Notes under the pieces: model-generated
The model's input: only the letters and a program-made list of their open reading frames with translations
What the model was told of the DNA's origin: nothing
Database searches by the model: none
In this document: piece by piece, positions 18,427-39,134 of the stretch
Layout of the letters: each line of letters begins with the position of its first letter
Position numbering within the stretch: the first letter of the stretch is position 1
Position numbers and translations under genes: made by a program
NCBI RefSeq assembly: GCF_902652685.1
Contig: NZ_CACRUY010000014.1
Coordinates: forward strand, 1 to 64,000
Length of the DNA stretch: 64,000 nucleotides
Source of the DNA: Mycobacterium sp. Marseille-P9652
Lineage (GTDB): Bacteria; Actinomycetota; Actinomycetes; Mycobacteriales; Mycobacteriaceae
Direction of reading: 5' to 3'

Positions 18427-20100
18427 TCAACCCCCCTCGCTGGTCGTGGAACCCTCTGCACCGGAACGTGTTTCGAGCATTTGCGCGGCCCCGTAACGGA
18501 TCCGCAGCTCAGTTTTGAGCACCTTCCCGGAGGGGTTTCGGGGCAGGGCGTCGACGATCTCGAGCGCTTTGGGGTGCTTGTAGCGGGCCAGTCGCTCGGC
18601 CAGGAAATCGGCCAGGTGCTCCAGCCGCAACTCGGCGTCGGTGACGGCCGCGACCGCGATCGGCACCTCCCCCCACTTCTCGTGGGCGCGGCCGATGACG
18701 GCCACCTCGACGATGCCGGGATGGCCGGCGAGCACGTTCTCGACCTCCGCGCAGTAGATGTTCTCGCCGCCGGAGATGATCATGTCCTTCTTGCGGTCGA
18801 CCACCCAGACGTAGCCCTCGTCGTCCATGCGGACGAGGTCTCCCGAGTGGAACCAGCCACCGGCGAAGGCCTCCGCCGTCGCCTCCGGGTTGTTCCAGTA
18901 GCCGCTCATCAATGTGGGCGCGCGATAGACGATTTCGCCGACCTCGCCGACGGGAACGTCGTTCATGTTCTCGTCGACGACGCGCGCGGCGACGGTGGGG
19001 ATCACCTTGCCCACCGACCCGCGCTTACGGATGGCGTCCTCCCCGAGGAGCATGCAGGTCACCGGCGACATCTCGGTCTGCCCGAACGCCGCCAGGATCT
19101 GCGTCCCCGGGAACGTCGCCGACATCTCGCGCAGCAGCGCGTCGGGCGCCGGCGCCGCCCCCCAGGACATCACCCGCAACCGCAGGTCGCGGGGGCGGGC
19201 GCGCTGTTCGGCGCAGACCGCCTGCCACTGGGCGGGGACCAGGAAGATGCCGGTGACCTTCTCGGCCGCGAGGACGTCGAGCAGCTGGCCGGGGTCGAAC
19301 GCGCCCAGCGGGTAGATCACCGTGGGGGTGCCGAGCGTCAGGCCGGTCAGCATGTTGCCGATCCCGGCGATGTGGAAGAACGGGACGCCGATGAAGCCGA
19401 CGTCGCTGTTGACGTCGGCGCCGTTGGTGTAGAGCCCGGTCATGGTCTGCCCGGTCAGGTTGGCGTGGGTCAGCACCGCGCCTTTCGGGCGGCCGGTGGT
19501 GCCGGACGTGTACATGATGAGCGCCGGCGAGTCGTTGGGGATGTCGACCGGCTCGTGCGAGTCACCGGGCTCGTCGACCAGGTCCTCGTAGCCCAGCACG
19601 CGGTCGTCGGTCGAGCCCCCGGCGACGGCGATCGTGCCCAGGATGGGCTGGATCTCGCGGACCCCGAGCGCCACCGGCGCCAGCACCGATTCGGTGATCA
19701 TCGTGCGGGCCTCGCAGTCCTCGGCCAGGAACGCGATCTCGGACGCGGTGAGCCGGAAGTTCAGCGGGACCGCGATCGCCCCGAGCATGTTGACGGCCAG
19801 GACGGACTCGATGAACTCGGGCCGGTTGAGCATCAGGATCATGACCCGGTCGCCGAAGCCGACCCCGCGGCGGCTCAGCGCGTCGGCCAGCGCGGCGACC
19901 CGGCGCTGCATACCGGCCCACGTCAGGGTGTTGCCCAGGAACCGCAGCGCGGTCGCGTCCGGTTGCATGACCGCGTGGCGCTCGAGCTGGTTGACCCAGT
20001 TCTGCCGGCGGGCGCGGTACAGCTGCTGGCTCGCACGCGAGCCCTGCGCCAGGTGGCCGGCCAGTTGCGCGGTCAACGCCAACCCCTCCCCTTCACTCAC
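18427..20100 (-). CDS. fadD5: FadD5, long-chain fatty acid-CoA ligase of the mce1 locus
   Basis: A 557-residue AMP-forming acyl-CoA synthetase. The P-loop-like A3 motif TSGTTGRPKG is at 198-207; FHSGDLVRMDDEGY and the hinge WVVDRKKDMIISGGENIY follow; the catalytic Lys of PSGK is near 526. It activates fatty acids to acyl-CoA and is thought to work on lipids delivered by Mce1. It is divergent from mce1R and starts the operon. The GTG at 20100 is the first plausible start; M. tuberculosis FadD5 begins about at the MTAQL position, 8 residues in. Confidence 0.94.
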   Translation of the reverse strand: MSEGEGLALTAQLAGHLAQGSRASQQLYRARRQNWVNQLERHAVMQPDATALRFLGNTLTWAGMQRRVAALADALSRRGVGFGDRVMILMLNRPEFIESVLAVNMLGAIAVPLNFRLTASEIAFLAEDCEARTMITESVLAPVALGVREIQPILGTIAVAGGSTDDRVLGYEDLVDEPGDSHEPVDIPNDSPALIMYTSGTTGRPKGAVLTHANLTGQTMTGLYTNGADVNSDVGFIGVPFFHIAGIGNMLTGLTLGTPTVIYPLGAFDPGQLLDVLAAEKVTGIFLVPAQWQAVCAEQRARPRDLRLRVMSWGAAPAPDALLREMSATFPGTQILAAFGQTEMSPVTCMLLGEDAIRKRGSVGKVIPTVAARVVDENMNDVPVGEVGEIVYRAPTLMSGYWNNPEATAEAFAGGWFHSGDLVRMDDEGYVWVVDRKKDMIISGGENIYCAEVENVLAGHPGIVEVAVIGRAHEKWGEVPIAVAAVTDAELRLEHLADFLAERLARYKHPKALEIVDALPRNPSGKVLKTELRIRYGAAQMLETRSGAEGSTTSEGG

Positions 20101-20228: not shown

Positions 20229-20915
20229 GTGAACGCACCGATATCGACGCAGCCGAGGAGGCGTCGACCACTGCGCCGGGCGCAGTTGTCCGACGAGGTG
20301 GCGGGACGTCTTCGGGCGGCGATCATGTCCGGGACGCTGCGCCCGGGGACGTTCGTCCGGCTCGATGAGACCGCGGCCGAGCTCGGGGTCAGCATCACGC
20401 CGGTGCGCGAGGCGCTGCTGAAGCTGCGCGGCGAGGGCATGGTCCAGCTGGAGCCGCACCGCGGTCACGTCGTGTTGCCTCTGACGGCGCAGGACATCCA
20501 GGACATCTTCTGGCTGCAGGCCACCATCGCGCGGGAACTGGCCGCCGCGGCCACGGAGAACATCACCGACGCCCAGGTCAACGAGCTCGAGCGCATCAAC
20601 GACGCGCTGGCGGCGGCGGTCGGTTCCGGCGACGCCGAGACGATCGCCGGCATCGAGTTCGCGTTTCACCGGGTCTTCAATCAGGCCAGCGGCCGGATAA
20701 AGCTGGCCTGGTTCCTGCTCAACGCGGCGCGCTACATGCCGGTGCTGGTGTACGCCGCCGACCAGCAGTGGGGTGACGCCGCGGTGAACAACCACCGGCA
20801 GGTGATCGCCGCGTTGCGCCGGCGCGACGCCGCCGCGGTGATCGACCACACCGTCTGGCAGTTCACCGACGCGGCCAACCGGCTGACCGAGATGCGCGGG
20901 CGGATGGGGATCTAG
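20229..20915 (+). CDS. mce1R: Mce1R, GntR/FadR-type repressor of the mce1 operon
   Basis: A 228-residue GntR regulator of the FadR/FCD subfamily. The winged helix is at about residues 18-80, with the signature DETAAELGVSITPVREALLKL, and the FCD ligand-binding domain is at about 90-220 with metal-site His residues (FHRVF, NNHRQVI). In M. tuberculosis Mce1R represses the mce1 operon and responds to lipid-related signals. The GTG at 20229 gives the usual start; it is divergent from fadD5 and convergent with the SRPBCC gene. Confidence 0.93.
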   Translation: MNAPISTQPRRRRPLRRAQLSDEVAGRLRAAIMSGTLRPGTFVRLDETAAELGVSITPVREALLKLRGEGMVQLEPHRGHVVLPLTAQDIQDIFWLQATIARELAAAATENITDAQVNELERINDALAAAVGSGDAETIAGIEFAFHRVFNQASGRIKLAWFLLNAARYMPVLVYAADQQWGDAAVNNHRQVIAALRRRDAAAVIDHTVWQFTDAANRLTEMRGRMGI

Positions 20916-20987: not shown

Positions 20988-21428
20988 CTAGTTGCCGGAG
21001 AGCTGCTCGGCGCGCTGCTTGAGGTTCTCCGCGAGGTGGTCGAGGACGTTGCCGGCGAGCTGCTTCACCATCGGGGCCGGGATCGGCATGGAGGTCTCGA
21101 CGTCCATGTCCACCGTCAGCAGGCTCGACGCGCCGGTCTCCACGACGCTGAACAGCTGCTCCTGCTTGGTGAAGAGATCACCTTGCTGCAGCACGGTCTG
21201 TATCTGGTTCTCCCCCGGGTAGTACACGGCCTGGATGAAGGTGGCCTTCATCCCCTGGTAGTCCGCATCCAGGCGCAGCTGGCTGGGCCGCCCGTCGTCG
21301 TAGCGGGCCAGCACCCACAGTCCCTGGACCTCCTGGTTCCACTGCGGGTAGGCCTCGAAGTCGGCGACGATTGCCATGATCGATGCGGCGTCGGCACCGA
21401 CCTCGACGGTCTTGCTCAGAACTGGCAT
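20988..21428 (-). CDS. SRPBCC/polyketide-cyclase-like protein (TB18.5/Rv0164-like)
   Basis: A 146-residue START/SRPBCC-fold protein (VEVGADAASIMAIVADFEAYPQW at the start of the fold). These hydrophobic-pocket proteins bind lipids, polyketides or similar ligands; the ligand here is unknown. It is the orthologue by position of M. tuberculosis TB18.5. The ATG at 21428 follows AAGGT. It is the last gene of a long minus-strand run and lies 32 bases after the thioesterase gene. Confidence 0.88.
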   Translation of the reverse strand: MPVLSKTVEVGADAASIMAIVADFEAYPQWNQEVQGLWVLARYDDGRPSQLRLDADYQGMKATFIQAVYYPGENQIQTVLQQGDLFTKQEQLFSVVETGASSLLTVDMDVETSMPIPAPMVKQLAGNVLDHLAENLKQRAEQLSGN

Positions 21429-21460
21429 TCGCCAACCTTAAGTTATTGCCCCGCAGGAAC

Positions 21461-21922
21461 TTATTGCCCCACAACGGCCGTCGACAGCAGCGCGCGGATG
21501 GGGTCCGGGATGGGGACGGACTTGCGGCTGGTCCGGTCGACGTAGACGTGCACCCAATGGCCCAGCGCGGTGACCGGTTGCGGCTTCGAACCCGCCCGCA
21601 GGACGCCCAGGCGATAGGTGACGCTGCTGCGGCCCAGCCGGGTGACCGCCAGCCCAATCACGAGTGCCTCCGGGAAGTGCAGTTCGGAGAAGTAGCGACA
21701 GCCGGACTCGGCGTCGATGCCCAGCGCCGGCGCGGTGATCGGGTCGAGCCCGGTGCTGGTGTTGATCCAGGCGTTGATCGCGGTGTCGAACAGCTGGTAG
21801 TAGACGGCGTTGTTGAGGTGGCCGAACATGTCGTTGTCGGCCCACCGGGTTCCCACCGGCCACAGCACCGGGAAGTCGTCGCTCGTCAGCCCGTCGGGCG
21901 CGGGCGGAACCACAGAGGTCAT
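21461..21922 (-). CDS. Acyl-CoA thioesterase, 4HBT hotdog fold (Rv0163-like)
   Basis: A 153-residue single hotdog protein. The motif WADNDMFGHLNNAVYYQLFDTA carries the catalytic Asp and helix of the 4-hydroxybenzoyl-CoA/YbgC thioesterase family. It would hydrolyse acyl-CoA thioesters in the cytoplasm; the substrate is unknown. It starts 4 bases after the transhydrogenase gene, so the accessory operon runs into these two conserved mce1-adjacent genes. Confidence 0.88.
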   Translation of the reverse strand: MTSVVPPAPDGLTSDDFPVLWPVGTRWADNDMFGHLNNAVYYQLFDTAINAWINTSTGLDPITAPALGIDAESGCRYFSELHFPEALVIGLAVTRLGRSSVTYRLGVLRAGSKPQPVTALGHWVHVYVDRTSRKSVPIPDPIRALLSTAVVGQ

Positions 21923-21926
21923 GCGT

Positions 21927-23234
<1,308 letters not shown>

Positions 23235-23241
23235 GCGCCCA

Positions 23242-24435
23242 TTATCTCGGGTGCAGCGGCGCCACCGGCTCGACGGCGGTCTCGGGCAGCCGGTGCTCGT
23301 CGATGTAGTCCCAGCGGATCTGGTAGCCGAGGCCGGGCGCCGACGGTATGTCCACGAACCCGTCTGCGCCGAGCGGGTCGCAGGGCGCGTCGAGGTAGGC
23401 CGGCGCGCCGTCGTAGCGGACTCCCGGCCCGAGCAGCCCCCGCTCGTAGTATTCGCAGACGTCCTCGCTGGTCGCGCCCAGGACTTGCAGGTTGCCGAAG
23501 CCGCTCATGTGCAGCTCGCAGCGCATGCCGACCGCCTCGCACATCCCGGCCAGCTTCATCACGCCGGTGATGCCTCCCCGCAGCACGTCGATGCGGCTGA
23601 TGTCGGACGCGTCGCGCAGGATCCAGTCCGCGCGGGTGTAGATGCCGCCCTCGGCGATCTCGGGCGAGCAGATCGGGATGTCGAGCTCCCGGGCGAGGCG
23701 CACATAGGACTGCGTTTGGTGTTCCGGCATGGGGTGCTCGTACCAATAGAAGCCCAGCCGTTCGAGTTCGCGGCCGACCCGCAGCGCGTCGGCGTAGGTG
23801 TGGTAGGTGCCCCACGGGTCGAACATCAGCACCATGTCGTCGCCCACCGCGGCGCGAACCTCGCGGCAGACTCCGATGTCCCAGTCGACGTACGACGGCC
23901 GCGGCAGCGCGGGCTCGCCTGTCGCCGGATTCCAGTAGTGGTACGGGTGGATCTTGTAGGCGCCGTAGCCCTGGCGCTTGCACTCGACGGCGTGGGCGGC
24001 ATACTCGCCGGGGGATCCGAGGTTGTTGAAGCTGCTGGCGTAGGCCTTGACCCGGTCGCGGGCGCCGCCGAGGAGTTTGCGCACCGGCAGTCCGGCGACC
24101 CGGCCCGCCAGGTCCCACAAGGCGAGATCGATGACGCTGCAGACGTTTTCGGGAAGCTTTGCCGCCCACAGCTGCCGCCAGATCTCGGCCCGGTCCAACG
24201 GGTCCTGGCCGGCGAGCAGCGGGCTCAGGAACTGCGTGATGAGCGCCCGGTCGCCGGGCAGCAGCCCGTCCTGGTCGCCGTGGAAGTGGCCGCCGAAGTA
24301 ATAGCCCTCGATGCCCTCGTCGGTGAGCACCTTGGTGACGGTCTGCACCACGCGGTAGTCGGTGTTCAATTGGCCGAACGAGATTCGGTCGACGAACGTC
24401 TCGAACGGCACCACCTCGAGCCCCGTGATCTTCAT
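23242..24435 (-). CDS. Enolase-superfamily (mandelate racemase/muconate lactonizing type) acid dehydratase
   Basis: A 397-residue enolase-superfamily enzyme. Visible active-site set: Lys161 and His163 (KIHPYH), metal ligands Asp206 (MFDPWG), Glu233 (YWYEHP) and Glu259 (CSPEIAEG), and a His309-Asp283 dyad ([14 protein letters not shown]). The His-Asp dyad places it in the mandelate racemase subgroup, which includes many sugar-acid dehydratases making 2-keto-3-deoxy acids. With an HpaI-type aldolase in the same operon, dehydration followed by retro-aldol cleavage is an attractive reading. Racemase or lactonising activity is not excluded. Confidence 0.85.
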
Positions 24436-24465
24436 GCCTGCCGATTGTTCCGGCGGGCCGAACGC

Positions 24466-25410
24466 TCAAGTAGAGGCGAAGGTCCTTGCCAAGGCGTCCC
24501 CTTGCAGCGCGAACAGTCGCTCGGACGGCGGCCAGTCGGGCAGCAGGGTGTCGAACCCGTGACACGTGCGGGGAAAGACGTGCAACTCGGCGGACACTCC
24601 GGCGCGCAAAAGCCGCATCGCGTACTCGATCGCCTCGTCACGGAAGGGATCGACCTCGGCGCACGTGATGAATGCCGTTGGGAGATAGCCGTTATGGACT
24701 CGCCGGGCGGGGACCGCGGCGGGAGAAACGTCCGTGGCGCCCAGGTAGTACCGCCACATCGACTCCGCGGCCTCGCCGTCGAAGGCCGGGCTGGCGCGGA
24801 ATTCCTCCTTGGACGCGGTCGGCCGATCGTCGAGCACTGGTTGGTGCAGTAGCTGGAACACCACCCGCGGGAGCGACCCGTCCGCGGTCTCGTGGGCGAG
24901 GCAGGCCGCCAGCGTGGCGCCGGCGCTGCTCCCCGCAACGGCGAGCCGCGCGGCATCAACACCCAGGTCGGCCGCCGATTCGGCCACCCACGTCAGGACG
25001 GCCCTCGCGTCCTCGAGGGCGGCCGGATAGGGATGCTCCGGGGCCAACCGGTAGTCGACGGACACCACGGCGCATCGGCCGCGACGCGCGAGTTCGACGC
25101 ATTGCCGGTGATCGGTGTCCAGGTTTCCCAGTGCGAAACCGCCCGCGTGACAGTAGATTACGGTCGGGGATGGCGACGGTCCACCGCGATATATGCGGAC
25201 CGCCACATCGCCCGATTCGGTCGCCACGTTATCTTCGACGATCCGCACGCCCCGCGCGTCGGTGCGCTCGGCGGTCTCCCGGCGACGCTGGTTGAAGGGT
25301 TCCCGCATGAGCCGAATCGACTCCGCGGCAAAGTCGGTCCGCGTCGTCGCGACGGCGCGCAAGGCGGGATCAAGCCGTTCGAAGCCATCCAGGCCACCCA
25401 GCTCCGTCAT
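24466..25410 (-). CDS. Alpha/beta hydrolase, hormone-sensitive lipase-like esterase
   Basis: A 314-residue HSL-family (alpha/beta hydrolase fold-3) esterase. The oxyanion motif appears as HAGG at 88-91 (usual HGGG), nucleophile Ser162 in GSSAG, and probable Asp254 (AEVDPFRDE) and His284 (TCHGFD) complete the triad. The ATG at 25410 makes an ATGA overlap with the monooxygenase stop. A natural role is hydrolysis of the ester or lactone made by the neighbouring Baeyer-Villiger enzyme; this is inferred from context. Confidence 0.87.
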   Translation of the reverse strand: MTELGGLDGFERLDPALRAVATTRTDFAAESIRLMREPFNQRRRETAERTDARGVRIVEDNVATESGDVAVRIYRGGPSPSPTVIYCHAGGFALGNLDTDHRQCVELARRGRCAVVSVDYRLAPEHPYPAALEDARAVLTWVAESAADLGVDAARLAVAGSSAGATLAACLAHETADGSLPRVVFQLLHQPVLDDRPTASKEEFRASPAFDGEAAESMWRYYLGATDVSPAAVPARRVHNGYLPTAFITCAEVDPFRDEAIEYAMRLLRAGVSAELHVFPRTCHGFDTLLPDWPPSERLFALQGDALARTFAST

Positions 25411-26918
25411 CGGTTGCTCTGCTCCGCTGCCGGCACCGCCGCACCAACTTCGGACCCGCCCGGTGCGCGGAAAGTGAAGTCGACGGGCTTGAAGCGGCGC
25501 GTCATGGCCCAGAAGGAACGGGCGCTGCGCGGCCACTGGGTCACCACCCGCCCATTGGGGGCGCGGAAATAGTTGCTGCAGCGCGTGGTCCACACGGTGC
25601 CGACGATCCAGCGGTCGACCTTGGCGACAAAGTCCGCCAGCGCGGCGGGCCGCACTGCGACATAGGTCTTGCCTCTGCGCCGCATGTATTTCAGCGCGCG
25701 CACGATGTAGCGGGCTTGGGCTTCGAGCATGAAGATCACGCTGTTGGAACCGACATTGGTGTTCGGCCCGTACAGCATGAAGAAGTTAGGGAACCCCGGA
25801 ACGGCCATCCCGAAATACGCGTGCGCCCCGTCGCGCCATACCTCTCGCAGCGTGGCCCCGCCCTCGCCGGTCACGTCCAACTCGCCCAGGTAGTCGGCCG
25901 CGGCGTAACCCGTCGCACACACCACGACGTCGACCTCGCGCTCTCTGCCGTCATCGGTCACCAGAGTGCGCTCGCGCAGGCATCGCGCCGGGCTGTCCAG
26001 TACCTCGACGTTGGGCCGGGTCAATGCGGCCAGGTAGTCCGAGGAGAACACCAGCCGCTTGCAGCCCATGGGGTGGTCAGGGGTCAGCTTGCGACGCAAT
26101 TCGTCATCGGCAACGGTCTTTTCGAGCATGCCCAGCGCGATCGCCGTGAATTCCTCGGTCTTCGGGCTGCCGTGCTCGATCACCGAGATGTTGGATTCGC
26201 TGCGCAGCCACAATCGGGTCCGGTACAGCTTCTTGGCGAACGGTAGGTGGGCGAATAGCCAGCGTTCCCGACGGGTGTACGGGCGGTCGGGCTTGGGCAG
26301 GATCCAGGTCGGCGATCGCTGCACCGAGTACACCGTGTCGGCGACCTCAGCCAACTCGGGCACCAGCTGTGATGCGGTGGAACCGGTGCCCAGCACGGCG
26401 ACCCGCGCACCCTCGAGCCGCACCGAGTGGTCCCACCGCGAGGAGTGCATCAGCGTGCCGGTGAACGGCTCCTCTTCGACGAGCGCCGGAAAGAGCGGGC
26501 GGGTGAACAGCCCGACGGCGGACACGACGATGTTGAACCGGTGCTGGTCACCATCCGCACTCGTCAGGCACCACCGTTGGGTATCTTCCTCCCAATTGGC
26601 GGAGACGATCTCGGTGCGCAGCCGCAGGTGCGGGCGCAGACCGTACCTGTCGGCGCAGCGCTGGAAGTATTTCAGGATCTCGGGCTGCGCGGGCCAGAGC
26701 CTCGACCAGTCCGAGTTCAGGTCGAACGAGTAGGAATACAGGTGCGACTTGACGTCGCACGCCAGCCCCGGATAGGTGTTGATCAGCCAGGTGCCCCCGA
26801 CGTCGTCTTCTCGGTCGAATATCGTAAAGTCACGGAATCCCGCTTCGGCCAACAGGATGCCCATCGCCATGCCGCCCGGCCCGGCCCCGATGATGCCGAC
26901 GGACAACCCGGCGCTCAC
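25407..26918 (-). CDS. Baeyer-Villiger-type flavin monooxygenase
   Basis: A 503-residue class B flavoprotein monooxygenase. The FAD Rossmann motif GAGPGG is at 11-16, the NADPH motif GTGSTA at 177-182, and between them FTGTLMHSSRWD (152-163) matches the type I Baeyer-Villiger fingerprint FxGxxxHxxxW(P/D) exactly. It should insert oxygen next to a ketone to give an ester or lactone. GTG at 26918 was chosen because it has GGAG 6 bases upstream and a GTGA overlap with the SDR stop; an ATG at 26933 is less well placed. Confidence 0.9.
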   Translation of the reverse strand: MSAGLSVGIIGAGPGGMAMGILLAEAGFRDFTIFDREDDVGGTWLINTYPGLACDVKSHLYSYSFDLNSDWSRLWPAQPEILKYFQRCADRYGLRPHLRLRTEIVSANWEEDTQRWCLTSADGDQHRFNIVVSAVGLFTRPLFPALVEEEPFTGTLMHSSRWDHSVRLEGARVAVLGTGSTASQLVPELAEVADTVYSVQRSPTWILPKPDRPYTRRERWLFAHLPFAKKLYRTRLWLRSESNISVIEHGSPKTEEFTAIALGMLEKTVADDELRRKLTPDHPMGCKRLVFSSDYLAALTRPNVEVLDSPARCLRERTLVTDDGREREVDVVVCATGYAAADYLGELDVTGEGGATLREVWRDGAHAYFGMAVPGFPNFFMLYGPNTNVGSNSVIFMLEAQARYIVRALKYMRRRGKTYVAVRPAALADFVAKVDRWIVGTVWTTRCSNYFRAPNGRVVTQWPRSARSFWAMTRRFKPVDFTFRAPGGSEVGAAVPAAEQSNR

Positions 26919-27643
26919 CGAATCTCCAGGCATTGCCCACCGTCGACGACCAGTTCGCAACCCGTGATGAACGACGCCTCCCTGGAGAGCAAGAAAGCAA
27001 CGGCCGCGCCGATTTCGGTCGGCTGGCCAATCCGCCCGAAGGCCGACGACGCGGCCAGCCTCAGTTGCGTCGCATCGTCGAGCATGGGAGTTGCGATGGG
27101 TCCGGGAAACACCGCGTTGACTCGGATCCCCAACGGGGCCAGTTCGGCGGCGGCCTGTTGGGTCAGGCCCCGCAGCGCCCACTTGGAGGAACCGTAGGCG
27201 CTGTGCCGCGGGAATGGACGGATGGCCCCGGTGCTGCAGATGTTGACGATGGCCGCGTCCGTGGCGGCTCTCAGCTGCGGAAGCGCCGAGTGGATTCCCA
27301 GGAATGCGCCGAAACAGTTAACGCGCCAAGATCTTTCAAAATCATCGGCCGTTTCGTCGGCTAGCGACGCGCGGTGCAGCACCCCAGCGTTGTTCACCAG
27401 TGCGGTCAACGAGCCGAAACGGCCGACAACCGCGGCGACGGCATTCTCCCACTGCGACTGCGAGGTGACGTCGAGCTCGACCCCGATCACCGCGTCATCG
27501 CCCAGTGCGTCGACTGCCGCGGTCAGCTCGTCGGCGCGGCGGTCGCAGGCGGCCACCGCGTAGCCCGCCGCGCGCACCCGCTGGGCGATGGCCCAGCCCT
27601 GTCCACCGGCGGCGCCGGTCACCAGTGCGACCCGTTCGTTCAT
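26915..27643 (-). CDS. Short-chain dehydrogenase/reductase
   Basis: A 242-residue classical SDR: cofactor motif TGAAGGQG at 9-16, NNAG at 84-87, catalytic Ser137, Tyr150 and Lys154. The acidic residue after beta2 (ACDRR) points to NAD(H). It probably interconverts an alcohol and a ketone, which could supply the ketone for the Baeyer-Villiger enzyme encoded next. Both ends use 4-base overlaps with its neighbours. Confidence 0.88.
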   Translation of the reverse strand: MNERVALVTGAAGGQGWAIAQRVRAAGYAVAACDRRADELTAAVDALGDDAVIGVELDVTSQSQWENAVAAVVGRFGSLTALVNNAGVLHRASLADETADDFERSWRVNCFGAFLGIHSALPQLRAATDAAIVNICSTGAIRPFPRHSAYGSSKWALRGLTQQAAAELAPLGIRVNAVFPGPIATPMLDDATQLRLAASSAFGRIGQPTEIGAAVAFLLSREASFITGCELVVDGGQCLEIR

Positions 27644-28038
27644 GACGACGTCACCTCGGGACTGCCGGAAAGGCCGGCGCTGGTGATGAATTGGCAACGG
27701 CGCCTGGCGAAGCGCCACCGCCCGTCGGCGCGGACCAGCTCGTCGTCGTACAGGGCGGGTCGTAGGCACAGGTCACCTGCCCGGACGAACAACACCTGCG
27801 AACGGGCGGTCGCGGTGTCACCGCGGACGTCGATCTGCGAGGCTCCGGTCAGGTGCAGCCCGTGCGGCGCATTCCGAAACATCGCACCGATGCCGGCGAA
27901 ACCCACGAAAGACCGCCCGTACACCACGAATTCGGCGTCGGGGAGAAACAGAGCCAGGCAGCCGTCGAGGTCACCGGCATCGAGGGCGAGCGCGTAGCCG
28001 GCGATCAGCGCGTGGATGGCGGCTCGATCGTCCGTCAC
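27640..28038 (-). CDS. SnoaL-like/nuclear transport factor 2 family protein
   Basis: A 132-residue NTF2-like fold protein (ALIAGYALALDAGDLDGCLALF at the start; DDELVRADGRWRFARRRC at the end). Relatives include SnoaL cyclases, steroid isomerases and dehydratases; a buried Asp often serves as catalyst. The substrate cannot be told. The start is GTG, overlapping the aldolase stop (GTGA). Confidence 0.8.
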   Translation of the reverse strand: MTDDRAAIHALIAGYALALDAGDLDGCLALFLPDAEFVVYGRSFVGFAGIGAMFRNAPHGLHLTGASQIDVRGDTATARSQVLFVRAGDLCLRPALYDDELVRADGRWRFARRRCQFITSAGLSGSPEVTSS

Positions 28039-28775
28039 GGCCCGGCCGCCTCGCGGAGATGCTCCGCGGCCCCGCGCCGCAGGGCCTGCGATTCGGCCGC
28101 CAGGGTGATCAACCGAAATCCCCGCTCCGCCATGGCGCGACCGGTCATGCCGTCCCCCGCGTGGATGCCGGTGATCAGGCCCGCGTCGCCGGCGGCTTGG
28201 GTTATTCGGTGTACCGCGTCCAGCACCACCGGGTGTTTCGTTGCGCCGACGACACCCACTCCCATCGAGAGGGCCAGATCGGCGGGCCCGACATATAAGC
28301 CGGCCAGTCCATCGACGGCGCAGATCTCCCCGAGGTCCGACAGCGCGGCCGCCGTCTCGATCATCGCGAACACGCTCACGCGCGACTGCAGCGCGGCGGT
28401 GTCGTGGCCGAGGCTGGCACGCAGCGGGCCGAAGCTGCGAACACCGGCCGGCGGGTAGCGAGTGGCGGCCACCGCCGCGGCGGCCTGGTCCGCCGACTCG
28501 ATCATCGCGATGACGACAGCGTCGGCACCGGCGTCGGCCACCCGACCGATCGGCGCCGCGTCGGCGCTGGGCAGGCGCACCACCGTGGCGATCGGCACGT
28601 GTTCGATGCGGCGGAGCATACGGGCGATGTCGGCGTCGTCGAGGTAGCCATGCTGGGCATCGAAACCCACGTAGTCGTAACCGGCCCGGGCGAATTCCTC
28701 CGGCCCGAGCAGCGTGGGCCCGGTGATCCAGCCGCCCCAAAGGGGACCGCTGCGCTCACCGTCGAAGAGGCTCAT
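28035..28775 (-). CDS. HpcH/HpaI-type class II aldolase
   Basis: A 246-residue (beta/alpha)8 aldolase of the HpcH/HpaI family. Catalytic His42 (FDAQHG), Arg67 (VRLPS), and metal ligands Glu140 (MIET) and Asp166 ([10 protein letters not shown]) are all present. Such enzymes cleave 4-hydroxy-2-oxo acids or 2-keto-3-deoxy sugar acids to pyruvate and an aldehyde. In this operon it could release pyruvate from the product of the enolase-superfamily dehydratase. The residue before His42 is Gln rather than the Glu of E. coli HpaI, as in many homologues. Confidence 0.86.
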
Positions 28776-29740
28776 TGGGCGATCGCGATCTTGATACGCT
28801 CGGGCACCGGGCGGCAGGCCAGGTCGAACGCGCCCTGCACGTCGCGGACGTCGAAGGTGTGCGTGAGATAGGTGCCGAGCAACCGGGGATGCTCGTCGGC
28901 GAACTTCGCTGCAGCATCCAGGACCCGCCTCCGATCCAGCGTCACACCGGATTTAAGCGTGAGGTTGTTACGCAGCATCAGGCGCATGCTGATCGGATAG
29001 GCGTCGTCGTCGGCCACGCCGAAATAGAAGACCGTGCCACCGGGGGCGGCGGCCTCGATCGCGTGGCCCAGGGTGGCAACCTGGTGTCCCACGGCCTCGA
29101 TGACGATGTCGGCCCGGTCGCCGGGCGCCAGGTGGCTCACCCATCGGTCGCTGGTGGCGCGCATCGGGTCGTCGACACCGAATGCCGTTGCGTGAGTTGA
29201 GCGGTCGACCGGGTCGACGCCGGTGACGCGCCGGGCGCCGGCCGCCATTGCCACGTAGGAGAACAGCAGGCCGATCGAGCCCTGGCCGATGATGGCGACG
29301 TGCCGGCCGGCCAGATCGGGGAGTTGCTCGCAGGCATACAAGACACAGGCCAAGGGTTGCAGGCCGATCGCCTCCGCCGGGCGCAGCGCCGGATCATACG
29401 GCGCCAACATGCCGCCATCGCTGATCACCCGTTCCATCAGCCCGTCGAACCCCGATGCCCAACCCACGACGCGATCGCCGGTTCGGTGGTCGGGGTGGCG
29501 GCTGGCGATGACCTCACCGGCCACCTCGTGAATCGGAAACCCGTCCTTTTCCGCGGCGCTGGTCCCGTCATCGCCCGGCAACCGGCCCTTGGCGCCCCGG
29601 AAGGCCGGCAGGTCGCTGCCGCAGATGCCGGCGGCCGAGAACCGCAGCAGCACTTCGCCCTCGGCCAGGTGATCGGGGGTCTTCTCGGGTATCGACGTCC
29701 GCTCGAACTGATACGGGGCGACGATGCGGTAGGACCACAC
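28772..29740 (-). CDS. Zinc-dependent alcohol/polyol dehydrogenase (MDR family)
   Basis: A 322-residue medium-chain dehydrogenase. Catalytic-zinc residues appear as Cys40 (GICGSD) and His71-Glu72, and the NAD motif GQGSIG is at 151-156. The usual four-cysteine structural-zinc lobe is absent, as in some sugar and polyol dehydrogenases. The GTG at 29740 has GGAGG upstream at a 6-base gap. It begins 1 base after the P450 stop and could oxidise the hydroxyl group that the P450 introduces. Confidence 0.85.
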   Translation of the reverse strand: MWSYRIVAPYQFERTSIPEKTPDHLAEGEVLLRFSAAGICGSDLPAFRGAKGRLPGDDGTSAAEKDGFPIHEVAGEVIASRHPDHRTGDRVVGWASGFDGLMERVISDGGMLAPYDPALRPAEAIGLQPLACVLYACEQLPDLAGRHVAIIGQGSIGLLFSYVAMAAGARRVTGVDPVDRSTHATAFGVDDPMRATSDRWVSHLAPGDRADIVIEAVGHQVATLGHAIEAAAPGGTVFYFGVADDDAYPISMRLMLRNNLTLKSGVTLDRRRVLDAAAKFADEHPRLLGTYLTHTFDVRDVQGAFDLACRPVPERIKIAIAQ

Positions 29741-29741
29741 C

Positions 29742-30953
29742 TCAGACCTCCACCGGGATCTTGTTCCATCCCCACTGGAAGCTGGACGGCAGTCGGGTCG
29801 CGGCCTGTTCCTGGATCGAATAATCGGGCACCCTGCGCAGCCATTCCTGCAGCAGGACGGCGACTTCCAACCGTGCCAGGTGGTAACCGATGCAGAAGTG
29901 CTGGCCGCGGCCGAAGGCCAGCGAGCGACGGATCGGGCGGTTCCACACGAATTCGTCGGGCTCGTCGTACTCTCGTTCGTCGCGGTTGGCCGAGGCCAGC
30001 AGCGTGATGACACGCTGGCCGGGCCGGATGGTCCGGTCGTGAAGTGTGAAGGGTTTCCGCGCCGTTCGGGCGAACCACTGCGCCGGCGCGCAGAACCGGA
30101 TCATCTCCTCGCGTGCAATCGCCACGTTGTCGGGGAGGTCGGCGCGCACCGCCGCCAGCTGGTCGGGCCGCCGGCCGAGTTCCCACAGCCCGTGGGCGAC
30201 GATCTTGGGCACCGTTTCGGTCCCGCCGATGAAGATGCAGAGCATCTGCGTGGCGGCTTCGACGTCGTCGAGCGCGGTGCCGTCGGGCAGGCGGTAGCCG
30301 AGCAGGCCGTCGACCACGGGCAGCGTGGCCCCGGACGGGTCGGCGCGGCGCCGCTGGACCGACGGGATCAGGAACTCGAGGTAGTTCGGCCTGGCCTGCG
30401 CGACCTCGACGCCGACGCCCGGTTCGGCAAGGCTGCCGGCATTGACCGACGCGAGCACCTCAGACGCGAGATCGGTTGGTATGCCAAGCAAGTCGCACAC
30501 GATGGACGCCGCCACGATACCGCCGTAGTCCTGAGTGAGGTCGAACCTGCCTTGTGGCAGCAGCACATCGAGGCGCTCGTTGGCCAGGGCGCGAATCCTG
30601 TCCTCCAGGCCGGCCACCGCCCTCGGTCGCAGCGGCAGGCTGTGCGCGCGCCGGATCTCGCCGTACAGGTCGGCGTCGAATACCGCGTGGAACGGCAGCG
30701 GGTGCAATGGCGGGTCGTCGACGGGACCGGCGTTGTGCCGGGCCAACACCGAGGCCGCGGGCAGCGTTCCCTCGGATGCGACGAAGGTGCCGTCGTTGAC
30801 TTCCAAAACGCGCCAGATGTCGTCGAAGCGGGAGAGCACGTAGGTGTCCCACTGCGGCATGTAGTACACCGGGTGCTCGTCGCGCAGAATCCGGTAGTAC
30901 GGCAACGGGTTTGCCATCACATCCGCGCCGAACGGATCGTACGAAAAGGTCAC
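29742..30953 (-). CDS. Cytochrome P450
   Basis: A 403-residue soluble bacterial P450. I-helix GGTET at 243-247, ExxR at 283-286, and heme loop FGRGQHFCIG with Cys354 as thiolate ligand are all intact. The C-helix region reads DADLYGEIRR (94-103), where most family members have a DPPxHxxxRR pattern, so the usual His is Tyr. It should hydroxylate a hydrophobic substrate; no ferredoxin gene is nearby. GTG start overlapping the upstream stop (GTGA). Confidence 0.9.
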   Translation of the reverse strand: MTFSYDPFGADVMANPLPYYRILRDEHPVYYMPQWDTYVLSRFDDIWRVLEVNDGTFVASEGTLPAASVLARHNAGPVDDPPLHPLPFHAVFDADLYGEIRRAHSLPLRPRAVAGLEDRIRALANERLDVLLPQGRFDLTQDYGGIVAASIVCDLLGIPTDLASEVLASVNAGSLAEPGVGVEVAQARPNYLEFLIPSVQRRRADPSGATLPVVDGLLGYRLPDGTALDDVEAATQMLCIFIGGTETVPKIVAHGLWELGRRPDQLAAVRADLPDNVAIAREEMIRFCAPAQWFARTARKPFTLHDRTIRPGQRVITLLASANRDEREYDEPDEFVWNRPIRRSLAFGRGQHFCIGYHLARLEVAVLLQEWLRRVPDYSIQEQAATRLPSSFQWGWNKIPVEV

Positions 30954-31654
30954 TGCAGGGGCGAGGGGGGTAGGGCTTGGAGAATCGAGTCCTCCCAGCC
31001 GTCGCGCAGGGCGGGCGCCACGCTCATCCACGTCACGAGCTCGGCGGGGGGACTCTCTTTGAATGACGGGTAGTGATTGGCGAAGCACTCCCAGCCGCCG
31101 TCCAGCGCCCAGTAGTGGATGACCTCGTTGTAGCGGAATGTGGTGGTGAAGGAACCCAGCCAACGCTTGCCGGTGCGCTCCGACCACGGGACATACAGCC
31201 GCTCCAGTTCGCGGATGTAGTCGTCTTGGCGCCCCGGTTTGGTCTGCATGATCTCCTGAATGACCAGCGGCGCGAGGAAATTGGTTCCGCGCAGCTGAAC
31301 CAGGGTTTTGTTGGAGGGGCCGGGGTACATGATGCGCCCCTCCCCCGCGGCGCCGATACCTGCCAAGAACTCCGACCATCGGCCGGCCGCGACACGGTGG
31401 CTGCCGCCGCGCGACTGGGCGGCCCCGATTCTGGCGTAGTCGGCGAAGCCATCGATCTCCCAGATGATCGTCACCTGCGGCCAGTGGCCGTTATAGGGGG
31501 TGGTCTCCCAGATGGCGAACAGCCGGGCACCGAGCTCGGCCATCATCGGCTGGTAAATGCGGGTGAACGTTTCGGTGAAGGCGTCACTTCTCCCCGTTCC
31601 CAGCGAGATCGTCTCGTGCAGGTAGAGCAGTGTGTGGCTGTAGTACTTCTTCAT
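30950..31654 (-). CDS. NIPSNAP-like dimeric alpha-beta-barrel protein
   Basis: A 234-residue protein that looks like two ferredoxin-like (dimeric alpha-beta-barrel) halves: residues about 1-105 and 115-220, each with aromatic-rich strands such as QVTIIWEIDGFADY and RYNEVIHYWALDGGW. I assign it to NIPSNAP-like proteins with moderate certainty. Members often accompany catabolic operons without a known activity. It starts 3 bases after the unknown gene upstream. Confidence 0.6.
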   Translation of the reverse strand: MKKYYSHTLLYLHETISLGTGRSDAFTETFTRIYQPMMAELGARLFAIWETTPYNGHWPQVTIIWEIDGFADYARIGAAQSRGGSHRVAAGRWSEFLAGIGAAGEGRIMYPGPSNKTLVQLRGTNFLAPLVIQEIMQTKPGRQDDYIRELERLYVPWSERTGKRWLGSFTTTFRYNEVIHYWALDGGWECFANHYPSFKESPPAELVTWMSVAPALRDGWEDSILQALPPSPLQ

Positions 31655-31657
31655 TGG

Positions 31658-32236
31658 CTAACGGCGCCAGGCCGACTCCGCGTCGACCGGCGAACAGCTG
31701 GCCATGTCGCACAGCAGCGTCTCGGTGAGATACACCGAATCGCAGGGCAATCCGGCCGCTGCCAGGGCGAAGCCCTTGAATCGGCGGGCCGCGCTGCTGA
31801 GCACATGTTGCGTCCGGGTCGTCGCGCGGTTGACGCCCAGGGGCAGCCCGTCACCCCACAGCGCCACCTCGGTCAACCGGTCGCCCAGCGCCTGGATCAC
31901 CCTGTCGCGCACGCTCGCGTGGGCGCTGAACGCCTCGGCGCTGACCGCCAGGGTCTGGCACCTCAACGCCGACAGGGATGGCCGCAGCTCGCCGTCAATC
32001 GACTGAACGCCGAGAATTCGCAGCGGGCGGCTGTCGCTGCCCGGCGGCAGGAGCGCCGTCACCTCCCACCCGGCCATCACCCGGTCGTACAGCCACCCCC
32101 CGGCCGATTGCACGACGTCGGCGACGCTGGCCGCGACGACGTCCAGTCGATATCGCAGATCCTCACCCTCCGTGCGGGGGGCCCGCGCGGCGCCGGTCCC
32201 GCGATCGTGGCTGATGTCGAACGTTGATGTGACCAT
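31658..32236 (-). CDS. Hypothetical protein, first gene of the 13-gene run
   Basis: A 192-residue soluble protein that I do not recognise. It has no signal sequence, membrane helix or nucleotide motif. A central stretch (GGWLYDRVMAGWEVTALLPPG) and a Ser/Ala-rich C-terminal helix are the only landmarks. The ATG at 32236 follows GAGGAA; an extra TTG codon precedes it. It opens a run of 13 same-strand genes and has the shared dyad 45-70 bases upstream, so it may be a regulator or accessory factor of that pathway. Confidence 0.65.
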   Translation of the reverse strand: MVTSTFDISHDRGTGAARAPRTEGEDLRYRLDVVAASVADVVQSAGGWLYDRVMAGWEVTALLPPGSDSRPLRILGVQSIDGELRPSLSALRCQTLAVSAEAFSAHASVRDRVIQALGDRLTEVALWGDGLPLGVNRATTRTQHVLSSAARRFKGFALAAAGLPCDSVYLTETLLCDMASCSPVDAESAWRR

Positions 32237-32280
32237 CAAATCGGTTCCTCGAAGGATGTGTGTGTCGTCACCCGACAGCG

Positions 32281-32306
32281 TGACACTTCAAGGGAAAATT
32301 GTAAAG
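32281..32306. promoter_or_regulatory. Shared dyad, copy 1 (upstream of the 13-gene run)
   Basis: TGACACT (32281-32287), 11 bases, TTGTAAAG (32299-32306). The core is an imperfect inverted repeat, TGACA-N14-TGTAA. It lies 45 bases upstream of the ATG at 32236 and is identical in its fixed positions to copies 2 and 3. Candidate TetR operator. Confidence 0.6.
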
Positions 32307-32330: not shown

Positions 32331-33500
32331 TTACAGCCCTCGCCGGGCCTCGAGTTCGGCCAGGACCTCGTCGGTGTGCTGCCCGAGTTTTGGTGCCGCC
32401 GAACGGGGCGCCCAGGGCGTGCCGTGGAAATCGGCGGGGCTGGCCACCATCGGCACGCCGGCTTCCCCGTCCGGGACATCGACCACGCCACCGGCGGCGT
32501 GGAACTGCGCGTCGGCCACGACGTCCTCGAGGGTGTTGACCGGTGACCAGAAGAAGTCGGGTTCGCCGGCGAAGACCACCGCCCACTCGTCGAGCGGCCG
32601 GGTGGCGAAGATGCGGTCGAGTTCGGCGATCAGCTCGGTGGCGTTGGCGGCCCGCGCCCGGGCGTTGTCGAAGCGCGGGTCGCTCAGCCAATCGGTGCGG
32701 CCCACCGCGCGACACAACGCGGGCCAGTGCCGATCGGCCTCCAGCCCGACGATCCAGAACCGACGCCCGTCGCCGGCGGCGTAGTTGTTCATGCACGGGT
32801 TGCCCATGGTCTCGCGCTGCCCGACCGCGATCGGCTGCCCGGTCATCAGATACGTGTTGAGGTCGAAGCTCACGGTGTAGGCGCCCTGCCGGTACAGCGA
32901 GGTGGTCACCAGCTGGCCTGCGCCTGTGCGGTGCCGGGCGATCAGCGCGGCGCAGATGGCGGCGGCGAGCGTCATGCCGGCCGAATGGTCGCCCATGCCG
33001 CCGCGCTGGAACGGCGGGGTGTCACCCGGCCGGGTGAGCAGGTGGGCCAGACCGGCGCGCGACCAGAACGCCGCGACGTCGTAGGCCGCCCGGTCTGCGT
33101 CGGGTCCGCTCTCGCCGTACCCGGTGATCAGCCCGTAGACCAGGCGCGGGTGGCGGGCCGCCAGGGCGTCGTAGTCCAACCCGAGCCGCCGCAGCGCGCC
33201 CGGGCGGACGTTGGTCACGAAAGCGTCTGCGCCGGCGAGCAATTCGTAAGCGGCATCCCGGCCGGCGCCGGAGGACAGATCGAGCACGACGCTGCGCTTG
33301 GAGCGGTTGTCCATTTCGAAGGGCGGGTTCACGCCCAGGTCGCAGCCGAGCATGCGGCCGAACAGGCGCCCCGGGTCGCCGGACGGCGGCTCGATCTTCA
33401 CCACGTCGGCGCCCCAGTCGGCCAGGATCGCGGCGGCGGCCGGCCCGGCCACCCACACCCCGAGCTCCACGACCCTCATGCCTTCCAGCGGTCCAGCCAT
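32331..33500 (-). CDS. CaiB/BaiF family (class III) CoA-transferase
   Basis: A 389-residue class III CoA-transferase. The N-terminal GMRVVELGVWVAGPAAA and the catalytic Asp171 in GGMGDHSAG are typical. It would transfer CoA between carboxylic acids (or act as a racemase, as alpha-methylacyl-CoA racemase shares the fold), which could prime the island's acid intermediate for beta-oxidation. The ATG at 33500 has AAGGTG upstream at 6 bases; a GTG at 33509 lies inside that site. It is separated from the 13-gene run by 94 bases. Confidence 0.87.
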   Translation of the reverse strand: MAGPLEGMRVVELGVWVAGPAAAAILADWGADVVKIEPPSGDPGRLFGRMLGCDLGVNPPFEMDNRSKRSVVLDLSSGAGRDAAYELLAGADAFVTNVRPGALRRLGLDYDALAARHPRLVYGLITGYGESGPDADRAAYDVAAFWSRAGLAHLLTRPGDTPPFQRGGMGDHSAGMTLAAAICAALIARHRTGAGQLVTTSLYRQGAYTVSFDLNTYLMTGQPIAVGQRETMGNPCMNNYAAGDGRRFWIVGLEADRHWPALCRAVGRTDWLSDPRFDNARARAANATELIAELDRIFATRPLDEWAVVFAGEPDFFWSPVNTLEDVVADAQFHAAGGVVDVPDGEAGVPMVASPADFHGTPWAPRSAAPKLGQHTDEVLAELEARRGL

Positions 33501-33520: not shown

Positions 33521-33634
33521 GCGCATCGACCGGGTGTACGGCCTGGCCTCCATCGGCCGCCCGAAGCGTTGACTGTGCGATGGCCCATCACCGCACGGTC
33601 GACGCGGCCCCGCGCAACTGGAAGGGTTAGCCCC

Positions 33635-34321
33635 ATGACACTGGTGGCCGGGCGCGGCCCGCTCAGCGACGACCCGGCGGGCCGGTTCTCTTCCCCGATA
33701 CCCGACGGCGTGAGCTACATCGAGCCGCACCCGCGCCGCGTCGAGGCCATCAAGGACGGCCGCATCGTGATCGACACCGAGCGGGCGCTGATGGTGCACC
33801 GGCGCGGCCACCCGCTGAGCTATGTCTTCCCCGTCGACGAGGTGGGCGACCTAACGACGGAACCCGGACCCGACGCGCCCGGCTTCGTGCGCGTGCCCTG
33901 GGATGCGGTCGACACCTGGCTGGAAGAGGGACGCGAGCTCGTCCACTACCCGCCCAACCCCTACCACCGCGTCGACTGCCGCCCAACACGACGCCGCCTG
34001 CGCGTCACCGTCGACGGCACGGTCCTCGTCGACACGGGCGACACCGTGATCCTGTTCGAAACCGCTCTCGAACCAAGGCTCTACGTCGATCCCGCGCACG
34101 TGCGCACCGACCTCCTTCGGCGCTCGGATACGACGACCTACTGCAACTACAAGGGCTATGCCACCTACTGGTCCGTCGCCGCGAACGGCCACTTGATCGA
34201 GGATGTCGCCTGGAGCTACGAGGACCCGCCGCCGGAAAGCCTTCCCGTCAGAGGCTTCCTGAGCTTCGATCAAGACCGGGTCGACGTCGACGCCGACCTG
34301 CCGCTCAGCCGCCGTAGCTAG
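33635..34321 (+). CDS. DUF427 domain protein
   Basis: A 228-residue cytoplasmic protein with two DUF427-like units (about residues 30-115 and 118-215); the second contains TTYCNYKGYATYWSV, the most conserved DUF427 stretch. The fold is known but no activity is established. The ATG at 33635 follows GAAGGG. It is divergent from the CoA-transferase, and its 3' end overlaps the convergent acyl-CoA dehydrogenase gene by 17 bases. Confidence 0.82.
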   Translation: MTLVAGRGPLSDDPAGRFSSPIPDGVSYIEPHPRRVEAIKDGRIVIDTERALMVHRRGHPLSYVFPVDEVGDLTTEPGPDAPGFVRVPWDAVDTWLEEGRELVHYPPNPYHRVDCRPTRRRLRVTVDGTVLVDTGDTVILFETALEPRLYVDPAHVRTDLLRRSDTTTYCNYKGYATYWSVAANGHLIEDVAWSYEDPPPESLPVRGFLSFDQDRVDVDADLPLSRRS

Positions 34322-37303: not shown

Positions 37304-37329
37304 TGACACTCGGCGCACAATTTGTAAAG
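37304..37329. promoter_or_regulatory. Shared dyad, copy 2 (upstream of the thioesterase-LLM-dehydrogenase unit)
   Basis: TGACACT (37304-37310), 11 bases, TTGTAAAG (37322-37329), same orientation relative to the gene as copy 1. Located in the 159-base divergent region between the thioesterase and the SMP-30 gene. Confidence 0.6.
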
Positions 37330-37415
37330 CCGACGAGGCGTGGTCCACGGCGCGAGCGGAAGGCGCTGCGCGCCAAGGCAATCGCGGTCACATTGACACC
37401 GACACCTTCGGTACG

Positions 37416-37441
37416 TGACACTTTTTCGATGTTTTGTAAAG
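37416..37441. promoter_or_regulatory. Shared dyad, copy 3 (at the SMP-30 gene start)
   Basis: TGACACT (37416-37422), 11 bases, TTGTAAAG (37434-37441). It spans the proposed ATG at 37429, so a bound regulator would block transcription or the gene start lies a little further downstream. Confidence 0.6.
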
Positions 37442-39111: not shown

Positions 39112-39134
39112 CAACGCGGCTCAACTTCGTAAGG
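39109..39134. promoter_or_regulatory. Degenerate shared dyad in front of the TetR gene
   Basis: TGACA (39109-39113), 14 bases, CGTAA (39128-39132): 9 of 10 core positions match copies 1-3 with the same spacing. It overlaps the ribosome-binding site of the TetR gene, as expected for autoregulation. Confidence 0.45.

Follow-up and report, generated by a model that had tools for sequence, protein, structure and literature searches.

The genome of Mycobacterium sp. Marseille-P9652 (assembly GCF_902652685.1) carries on contig NZ_CACRUY010000014.1 a gene cluster that probably forms a TetR-controlled regulon for the catabolism of an alicyclic, possibly isoprenoid, compound. The cluster was analysed within positions 1 to 64,000 of the forward strand of this contig, the whole of which is referred to here as the window. 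As judged from sequence, the regulon would comprise a core, a group of satellite genes and a 28-bp operator that stands before three transcription units and, in a weaker copy, before tetR. The predicted core consists of genes for a NIPSNAP protein, a cytochrome P450, a medium-chain dehydrogenase/reductase (MDR), an HpaI-type aldolase, a short-chain dehydrogenase/reductase (SDR), a Baeyer-Villiger monooxygenase (BVMO) and an esterase, and the predicted satellites are an SMP-30 lactonase (SGL), two 4HBT_3 thioesterases, an acyl-CoA dehydrogenase (ACAD), a luciferase-like (LLM) enzyme, a CaiB CoA-transferase and the TetR regulator. The rare operator gives about twenty mycobacterial genes a testable boundary and can be searched for in any genome to find further members, so that the nutrition of environmental mycobacteria, and its losses in other lineages, become directly testable. 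A prokaryotic NIPSNAP protein, and a route that joins P450, BVMO, lactonase and aldolase, are also given a possible function.

The core lies within a run of thirteen minus-strand genes, g1 to g13 from upstream to downstream, spanning 32236 to 20988. Fractions in the following list refer to complete loci of relatives, as defined below.

31658..32236, minus strand: g1, conserved protein without a Pfam or NCBIfam match, aligned with its relatives; 71/71 mce1-linked and 11/43 other complete loci
30950..31654, minus strand: g2, NIPSNAP-like protein (PF07978), core; identity 76-91% across 24 relatives
29742..30953, minus strand: g3, cytochrome P450 (PF00067, scanned on the longer frame 29742-31379), core; 114/114
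28772..29740, minus strand: g4, MDR/zinc-type alcohol dehydrogenase (PF00107 and PF08240, on a longer frame), core; CGSD and HE present
28035..28775, minus strand: g5, HpcH/HpaI-type aldolase (PF03328, E 3.5e-28), core; 111/114
27640..28038, minus strand: g6, SnoaL_4 protein (PF13577, on a longer frame), optional; 53/114
26915..27643, minus strand: g7, SDR dehydrogenase (PF13561 and PF00106) with YGSSK, core; 114/114
25407..26918, minus strand: g8, type I BVMO, FMO-like, with the fingerprint FTGTLMHSSRWD; 91/114
24466..25410, minus strand: g9, HSL/GDXG-type esterase (PF07859, Abhydrolase_3, E 2e-60); 100/114
23242..24435, minus strand: g10, enolase-superfamily protein (MR_MLE; PF13378 and PF02746), lineage-specific addition; 19/114
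21927..23234, minus strand: g11, iron-type alcohol dehydrogenase (PF00465 and PF25137), lineage-specific addition; 16/114
21461..21922, minus strand: g12, 4HBT thioesterase-like protein (PF13279), mce1-locus neighbour outside the regulon; kept with g13, GntR and FadD5 in the cluster-free locus L230
20988..21428, minus strand: g13, SRPBCC protein (Polyketide_cyc; PF03364), mce1-locus neighbour

An earlier sequence-only reading had taken these genes to be a single operon of thirteen members in which no gap exceeds 32 bases and six junctions overlap by 4 bases, and the spacing is as it described. In the direction of transcription the intergenic distances are 3, -4, 1, -4, -4, -4, -4, -4, 30, 7, 4 and 32 bases, the last being the largest, and the six overlaps lie at 30950, 28772, 28035, 27640, 26915 and 25407. 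An ad hoc gene caller placed the starts differently at two junctions, where the gaps become 13 and -79; by the same caller the run is the longest tight same-strand run in the window, followed by one of six mce genes. Among the other same-strand junctions in the window, 18/35 are also no wider than 32 bases and five of the 35 are -4. Since tight spacing is this common, spacing alone is weak evidence, and conserved gene order is the stronger kind. The domains that had been named (P450, zinc alcohol dehydrogenase, HpaI, SnoaL, SDR, BVMO, esterase and enolase superfamily) agree with Pfam; the label 'ADHFE1-like' for g11 is not supported, the protein being a generic iron-type alcohol dehydrogenase with every NCBIfam match far below its cut-off. 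Among the NCBIfam matches listed (for g7, the best 25 of 229 families), no equivalog cut-off was reached by any of g1 to g13, and broad subfamily cut-offs were passed by g6 and g7.

Gene order was compared in two sets of loci from relatives. The first (L037-L096) comprises 60 of the 89 places with a BVMO match of at least 69% identity, taken down the list and representing 59 genomes (G067 twice), and the second (L097-L176) comprises the best 80 of 205 NIPSNAP relatives, with some genomes in both sets. A locus was counted as complete when NIPSNAP and MDR genes were found in at least 12 kb of sequence with at least 7 kb of downstream room, and identical dehydrogenase sequences were de-duplicated. 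Of 167 loci entered, 114 were complete: the first set contributed 53 and the second 59, the other two being L204 and L239. NIPSNAP and MDR are present in 114/114 by selection, and g1 is present in 82. Genes g2 to g9 are out of order or strand in none of the 114, and the junctions g2-g3, g3-g4, g4-g5, g7-g8 and g8-g9 are no wider than 35 bp in 98-100% of the loci measured; the junction g5-g7 is as tight in 56%, g6 intervening in part of the loci. Counts for SGL, TetR and ACAD are lower bounds, because many of the 20-kb loci end before these genes.

With g12 as the sorting label, 71 of the 114 loci are mce1-linked. All 71 carry g13, GntR or FadD5 is in view in 65, and an AdhE1-like alcohol dehydrogenase on the opposite strand is found in 44, together with g10 in seven and with g11 in none; the other 43 contain neither g13 (SRPBCC) nor FadD5. 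The gene-neighbourhood comparison that the sequence-only reading had proposed upholds the order of g2 to g9 and shows g10 to g13 to be variable or bound to one locus. On the gene content of the 114 loci, the thirteen genes were rejected as one unit: the run resolves into a core, g2 to g9, with the frequent companion g1, the occasional additions g10 and g11, and the mce1 residents g12 and g13, and the putative regulated set extends upstream to about 39.7 kb. It is very improbable, on the other hand, that the run is a loose series of unrelated short operons whose coupling is incidental. Such a series would suit the 18/35 tight junctions elsewhere in the window and the variability of g10 to g13, but the order of g2 to g9 holds in either genomic setting and also in Aldersonia, and is accompanied by a shared operator.

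The cluster is present across many environmental mycobacteria. BVMO orthologues of at least 69% identity occur in 88 of 148 genomes of the genus, the present one included (89 places), and the next among the matches listed reach no more than 48%. A NIPSNAP profile at E <= 1e-10 matched 37/298 genomes in the order and 21/246 in the class; strong matches are confined to the genus except for one in the distant genome G380 (1e-85), and the remainder are weak. With the G380 protein as the query, 1/112 family genomes (G380 itself) and 4/296 phylum genomes were matched, all four of the latter in the genus of the window. In a search of named genomes, the best 80 of 205 NIPSNAP relatives come from mycobacteria, broadly defined, and from two Aldersonia. 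Aldersonia sp. NBC_00410 carries the cluster together with a TetR gene (L162). In G380, genes for a BVMO (35%), a NIPSNAP protein (50%) and an esterase (36%) stand side by side (L193). This triad adjoins a putative cyclase/FMN hydroxyacid oxidase pair and genes that, judged by eye, encode a Dpp-like transporter.

The evidence for common regulation is a putative operator, an inverted repeat common to the regions upstream of the cluster genes, with the short form TKACA-N14-TGTMA and the 28-bp form CGTGACACTT-N9-TTTGTAAAG. A search for palindromes whose 6-base half sites had to be exact yielded no clear motif; the repeat emerged when the upstream regions were read next to one another. Four copies are found in the window.

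32281..32304, no strand: operator 1, before g1; 28-bp form at 32279-32306 with 1 mismatch
37304..37327, no strand: operator 2, before the 4HBT_3-LLM-ACAD genes; 28-bp form from 37302 with 1 mismatch
37416..37439, no strand: operator 3, before SGL-4HBT_3-TetR; exact 28-bp consensus at 37414-37441
39109..39132, no strand: operator 4, before the TetR gene; TGACA-N14-CGTAA, 1 mismatch; absent from the genome matches to the 28-bp form at up to 3 mismatches

The short form has three exact sites in the window, each before cluster genes, where 0.13 are expected (15 Markov resamples), and operator 4 is the sole further match at one mismatch, with 1.7 matches expected at up to one mismatch. Across 145 loci (2.79 Mb), 386 exact short-form sites were found in 142 loci, compared with one in a single Markov resample; 357 of the 386 lie within 220 bp upstream of a labelled cluster gene, and 44 exact sites stand within this distance upstream of a TetR label. 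Sites in related genomes are not independent, and 275 distinct 34-mers are represented. In the 5.70-Mb genome itself, the 28-bp form at up to three mismatches has three sites, all of them in the cluster, and none in the reversed control; a looser short form finds 12 places, three in the cluster, with five in the control. In 20 other genomes, all 12 that have the cluster or remnants of it carry three to nine sites, and seven of the remaining eight carry none, the reversed control giving two in total. These eight genomes lack a BVMO orthologue and showed no cluster: its absence was read in sequence at the mce1 site for G105 (and for G078, in all but the TetR gene), and was deduced from the missing orthologue for G002, G063, G075, G083, G088 and G115. 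The last of these, a 3.3-Mb genome, has a lone 3-mismatch site about 670 bp from a FAD-oxidase gene (G115:C1:3147002-3147029), possibly a relic.

A TetR gene beside its proposed targets and an inverted repeat before these targets are both present, and a regulon would further predict that relocated genes keep the operator. Genome G049 fits this prediction. There, an ACAD gene (70% identity) followed by a 4HBT_3 gene lies on another contig, with a perfect site just before it that overlaps the end of the called upstream frame, and on a third contig a run of P450, FadE pair (47% and 70%), SnoaL (66%) and AMP-ligase genes has a 1-mismatch site. Three further sites on the contig with the FadE pair are near FadD, P450 and other genes. 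An island rich in P450, FadD and SDR genes with four sites (L244-L246; G049 contig C5, 1-58000) may hold further pathway genes. Similar 2-mismatch sites some 80-90 kb from the cluster in two genomes (G143:C1:425976-426003 and G100:C124:1026302-1026329) raise the possibility of a further conserved target. In five loci (L057, L058 and L062-L064), a putative cyclase gene is paired with one for an FMN-dependent hydroxyacid dehydrogenase, and five operator sites precede the cyclase gene.

The satellite genes upstream of g1, and the genes that bound the run downstream, are as follows.

39143..39682, plus strand: TetR-family regulator, the proposed regulator (PF00440, E 3e-14); 1-mismatch near-operator 10 bp upstream
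38281..39111, plus strand: 4HBT_3 acyl-CoA thioesterase-like protein (PF20789 and PF13622); beside SGL in relatives
37450..38262, plus strand: SMP-30/gluconolactonase-like protein (PF08450, E 2.8e-47); 84% to the homologue in L050
36382..37269, minus strand: 4HBT_3 acyl-CoA thioesterase-like protein (PF20789 and PF13622); GTG start
35456..36376, minus strand: luciferase-like (LLM) F420-type oxidoreductase (PF00296; TIGR03619 273.8 bits, cut-off 166.9)
34305..35456, minus strand: ACAD (PF02770, PF02771 and PF00441)
33569..34321, plus strand: DUF427 protein (PF04248, E 3.8e-34); start uncertain, 33569 or 33635
32331..33500, minus strand: class III CoA-transferase, CaiB-like (PF02515, E 1e-116, scanned from 33509)
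20229..20915, plus strand: GntR/FCD regulator of the mce1 locus (PF00392 and PF07729), boundary
18427..20100, minus strand: FadD5 (NF005857 1043.8 bits, cut-off 733), boundary and start of the mce1 genes

At the SGL start region (window 37441-37465, plus strand) the sequence has CTG where relatives have ATG; translation may begin at CTG (37450) or TTG (37465), or the gene may be weakened. The leader RNA of g1 showed unremarkable folding (z -1.29).

Within the mce1 locus, the cluster is flanked by a FAD-linked oxidase gene, which follows the TetR gene and ends the upstream side (the region was mapped up to 41.1 kb), and by the 4HBT-SRPBCC-GntR-FadD5 block. Beyond g13, a block reaching up to 20.9 kb contains the convergent GntR/FCD gene, FadD5, two YrbE/MlaE permeases and Mce proteins; the corresponding order in Mycobacterium tuberculosis is Rv0161 (FAD oxidase), adhE1, Rv0163, Rv0164, mce1R and fadD5. 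Such an address invites the explanation that the neighbouring Mce1 importer supplies a lipid that the thirteen genes process, and g12 and g13 do follow the cluster in 71/114 loci, 65 of which also show GntR or FadD5. This explanation is nonetheless quite improbable: g12, g13 and FadD5 are all out of view in the remaining 43/114 loci, the window scan found no operator before g10 to g13, GntR or FadD5, and the mce1 block of L230 has no cluster and that of L231 only a TetR gene. On the first two of these grounds, Mce1 as part of the same system was rejected as the main reading, and mce1 is a neighbour outside the regulon.

A comparison of 14 loci at the mce1 site illustrates the apparent stepwise loss of the cluster in some lineages. 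Its core genes are kept without the BVMO in L239-L242, and operators, g1 and some satellites are kept in L232-L238, which have no genes from NIPSNAP to esterase at that site; in genome G029 the profile search gave no NIPSNAP match. In L243 only CaiB stands beside AdhE1, and in L231 (G078) the TetR gene is the sole cluster gene kept. In L230 (G105) the order is FAD oxidase-AdhE1-g12-g13-GntR-FadD5, with no labelled gene between the oxidase and AdhE1. The survival of g1 in L232-L238 without the core at the site suggests that it may act independently of the core.

As for what the enzymes may do, the sequence-only reading of a co-directional catabolic set with P450, dehydrogenases, BVMO, esterase and aldolase is borne out by its conservation and by intact catalytic motifs. 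The P450 (g3) has the heme motif FGRGQHFCIG, ExxR and GGTET, and the esterase (g9) has HAGG, GSSAG and HGF. Type I BVMOs are recognized by the fingerprint FxGxxxHxxxW[P/D] and two GxGxx[G/A] motifs, and g8 has the fingerprint at residue 152, GAGPGG at 11 and GTGSTA at 177. The aldolase (g5) belongs to the PF03328 superfamily, and in an alignment with solved HpaI-type aldolases it retains the positions that we take to be metal-binding and catalytic. The best match of g10 in the Protein Data Bank (PDB) is 1rvk (E 1e-66). A structure model of the NIPSNAP protein g2 had a moderate pLDDT of 63.8 and was not used for fold comparison.

In the route that these enzymes suggest, the TetR protein (39143) would repress the operator promoters and its own, to be released by the substrate or an intermediate. 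Hydroxylation by the P450 would take place on an alicyclic skeleton or an isoprenoid chain, the resulting alcohol would be oxidized to a ketone by the MDR and SDR enzymes, and oxygen insertion by the BVMO would convert the ketone to a lactone or ester, to be opened by the HSL-type esterase or the SMP-30 lactonase. CaiB (or FadD enzymes) could then activate the acid, which the ACAD would shorten, the satellite 4HBT_3 enzymes implying thioester hydrolysis, and the HpaI-type aldolase would cleave an alpha-keto intermediate, releasing an aldehyde together with pyruvate (or a similar 2-oxoacid). Lineage variants, the enolase-type dehydratase here and the FMN hydroxyacid oxidase elsewhere, could fit a need for alpha-keto acids.

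The substrate class may tentatively be put down as an environmental alicyclic or isoprenoid compound, for which two features of relatives provide hints. A second P450, found in 24/114 loci, has CYP268A2 (6bld) as its best solved match (E 1.6e-134, 452 bits over 412 residues; one member scanned). Membership of the CYP268 family would call for more than 40% identity to one of its members. In Aldersonia, a large/small ACAD pair is inserted between the aldolase and SnoaL genes (L150 5144-7287 and L069 5416-7892); the larger subunit in L150 is nearest Tcur3483 and then 4x28, the FadE26-FadE27 enzyme of the cholesterol side chain, and the best matches of the smaller subunit are weak and general. The large subunit also raises the question of whether the substrate is a steroid and the cluster an additional branch in the breakdown of sterols or bile acids. 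That the best PDB match of the BVMO is a steroid monooxygenase (4ap3, E 8e-64), that a CYP125 ancestor is among the next-best solved matches of g3 (1.2e-35), and that G049 has an island rich in P450, FadD and ACAD genes with operator sites, would be consistent with it. A steroid is nevertheless unlikely: CYP130 comes ahead of the CYP125 ancestor as the best solved match of g3 (1.3e-41), the operator differs from KstR and KstR2 sites, and ring-degradation genes (Kst, Hsa, Ksh) were not recognized in the cluster, for which no gene-by-gene search was made.

Several observations weigh against a regulon for alicyclic or isoprenoid catabolism as set out here. The BVMO is found in 53/53 loci of the first set by selection and in 38/59 of those chosen by NIPSNAP, so that the Baeyer-Villiger step is often missing or supplied elsewhere, and the esterase is missing in 14/114. 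The locus sample leans to close relatives. The CYP268-like P450 of relatives is absent from this genome, where its best match has 41% identity and no listed match exceeds 43%. The aldolase g5 scores 125.5 bits, below the TIGR02311 cut-off of 368.8 for the HpaI equivalog (4-hydroxy-2-oxoheptanedioate aldolase). In L201-L203, a NIPSNAP-P450 pair stands apart from the other core genes. The operator motif was read from the same upstream regions in which it was later counted, which makes the counts for the window and the 145 loci partly circular; the tests in the genome itself, in the 20 genomes and on relocated genes provide cleaner evidence. Finally, 9/12 positive genomes have at least one site away from the cluster (five in G049, and one or two with 2-3 mismatches in the others), and the regulon may be wider or some of these sites may be due to chance. 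As a separate observation, the NIPSNAP-P450 pair of L201, L202 and L203 adjoins genes for a CYP268-like P450, a ferredoxin and a TetR protein.

The regulon reading can be extended to a fuller account, held with slightly less confidence than doubt when taken as a whole. In this account, a self-contained new regulon of Mycobacterium and Aldersonia, with its own operator, would serve the use of an isoprenoid or alicyclic substrate from soil or plant litter. NIPSNAP would be a new partner or enzyme of the P450/BVMO route and a pyruvate-type aldolase would perform the end step, the whole being kept in environmental species and lost stepwise elsewhere, with the operators going late.

In keeping with the sequence-only reading, which had recognized no known pathway, a literature search of open-licence PubMed Central (PMC) papers returned no matching pathway and no description of the cluster among the papers listed; the combination of aldolase and BVMO was not searched for as such. 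Parts of the cluster do resemble systems described elsewhere. By analogy with the mymA operon, the genes might serve biosynthesis or the remodelling of lipids, altering a lipid of the cell envelope and not breaking down a nutrient. The enzyme classes match the content of mymA (adjacent genes for BVMO, esterase, SDR and alcohol dehydrogenase, with FadD13), and the BVMO is of the same broad type. The marker genes of mymA are FadD13 and the AraC-type VirS, and that operon is not known to include a P450, an aldolase or a TetR operator. The mymA operon comprises Rv3083-Rv3089 of M. tuberculosis and is tied to remodelling of the envelope (PMC2793005, PMC9044951). The cluster BVMO, by contrast, falls in another orthologue group (at least 69% identity within it, compared with at most 48% for the next among the matches listed), and the P450, aldolase, lactonase, CoA-transferase, ACAD and thioesterases indicate breakdown. 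The adjacent regulator is of the TetR and not the AraC type; the protein scan between 20.9 and 39.7 kb found neither an AMP-ligase nor an AraC gene, FadD5 lying beyond in the mce1 block. The set is moreover eroded or missing at the mce1 site in several species, and an envelope-modifying role is accordingly doubtful.

Three further systems invite comparison. CYP268A2 of Mycobacterium marinum (PDB 6bld), for which a 2018 study by Child et al. is said to have described isoprenoid substrates, bears a likeness to the second P450 of relatives in the 24/114 loci and not to a protein encoded here. In the camphor pathway of Pseudomonas putida, the first Baeyer-Villiger enzymes are two-component, and neither an HpaI-type aldolase nor a NIPSNAP protein is known to take part. 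The pathway (camDCAB and later steps) proceeds through a P450, a dehydrogenase, Baeyer-Villiger oxidation and a CoA thioester, the lactone opening spontaneously and a CoA synthase activating the acid (PMC4097962). The succession from P450 to CoA thioester is shared with the route suggested here, the difference being that an esterase or lactonase and CaiB are proposed in place of spontaneous opening and a CoA synthase. A likeness is also seen in the degradation of monocyclic monoterpene ketones by Rhodococcus erythropolis DCL14, whose epsilon-lactone hydrolase is presumably a GDXG-family enzyme like g9. In that pathway, an alcohol dehydrogenase yields a cyclic ketone, a BVMO converts it to a lactone, and the action of the epsilon-lactone hydrolase is followed by CoA activation and beta-oxidation (PMC4097962). 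Dehydrogenase, BVMO, hydrolase and CoA-dependent breakdown are thus common to both, and to these the cluster described here adds a P450, a NIPSNAP protein, an HpaI-type aldolase, an SMP-30 lactonase, CaiB and a TetR-type operator.

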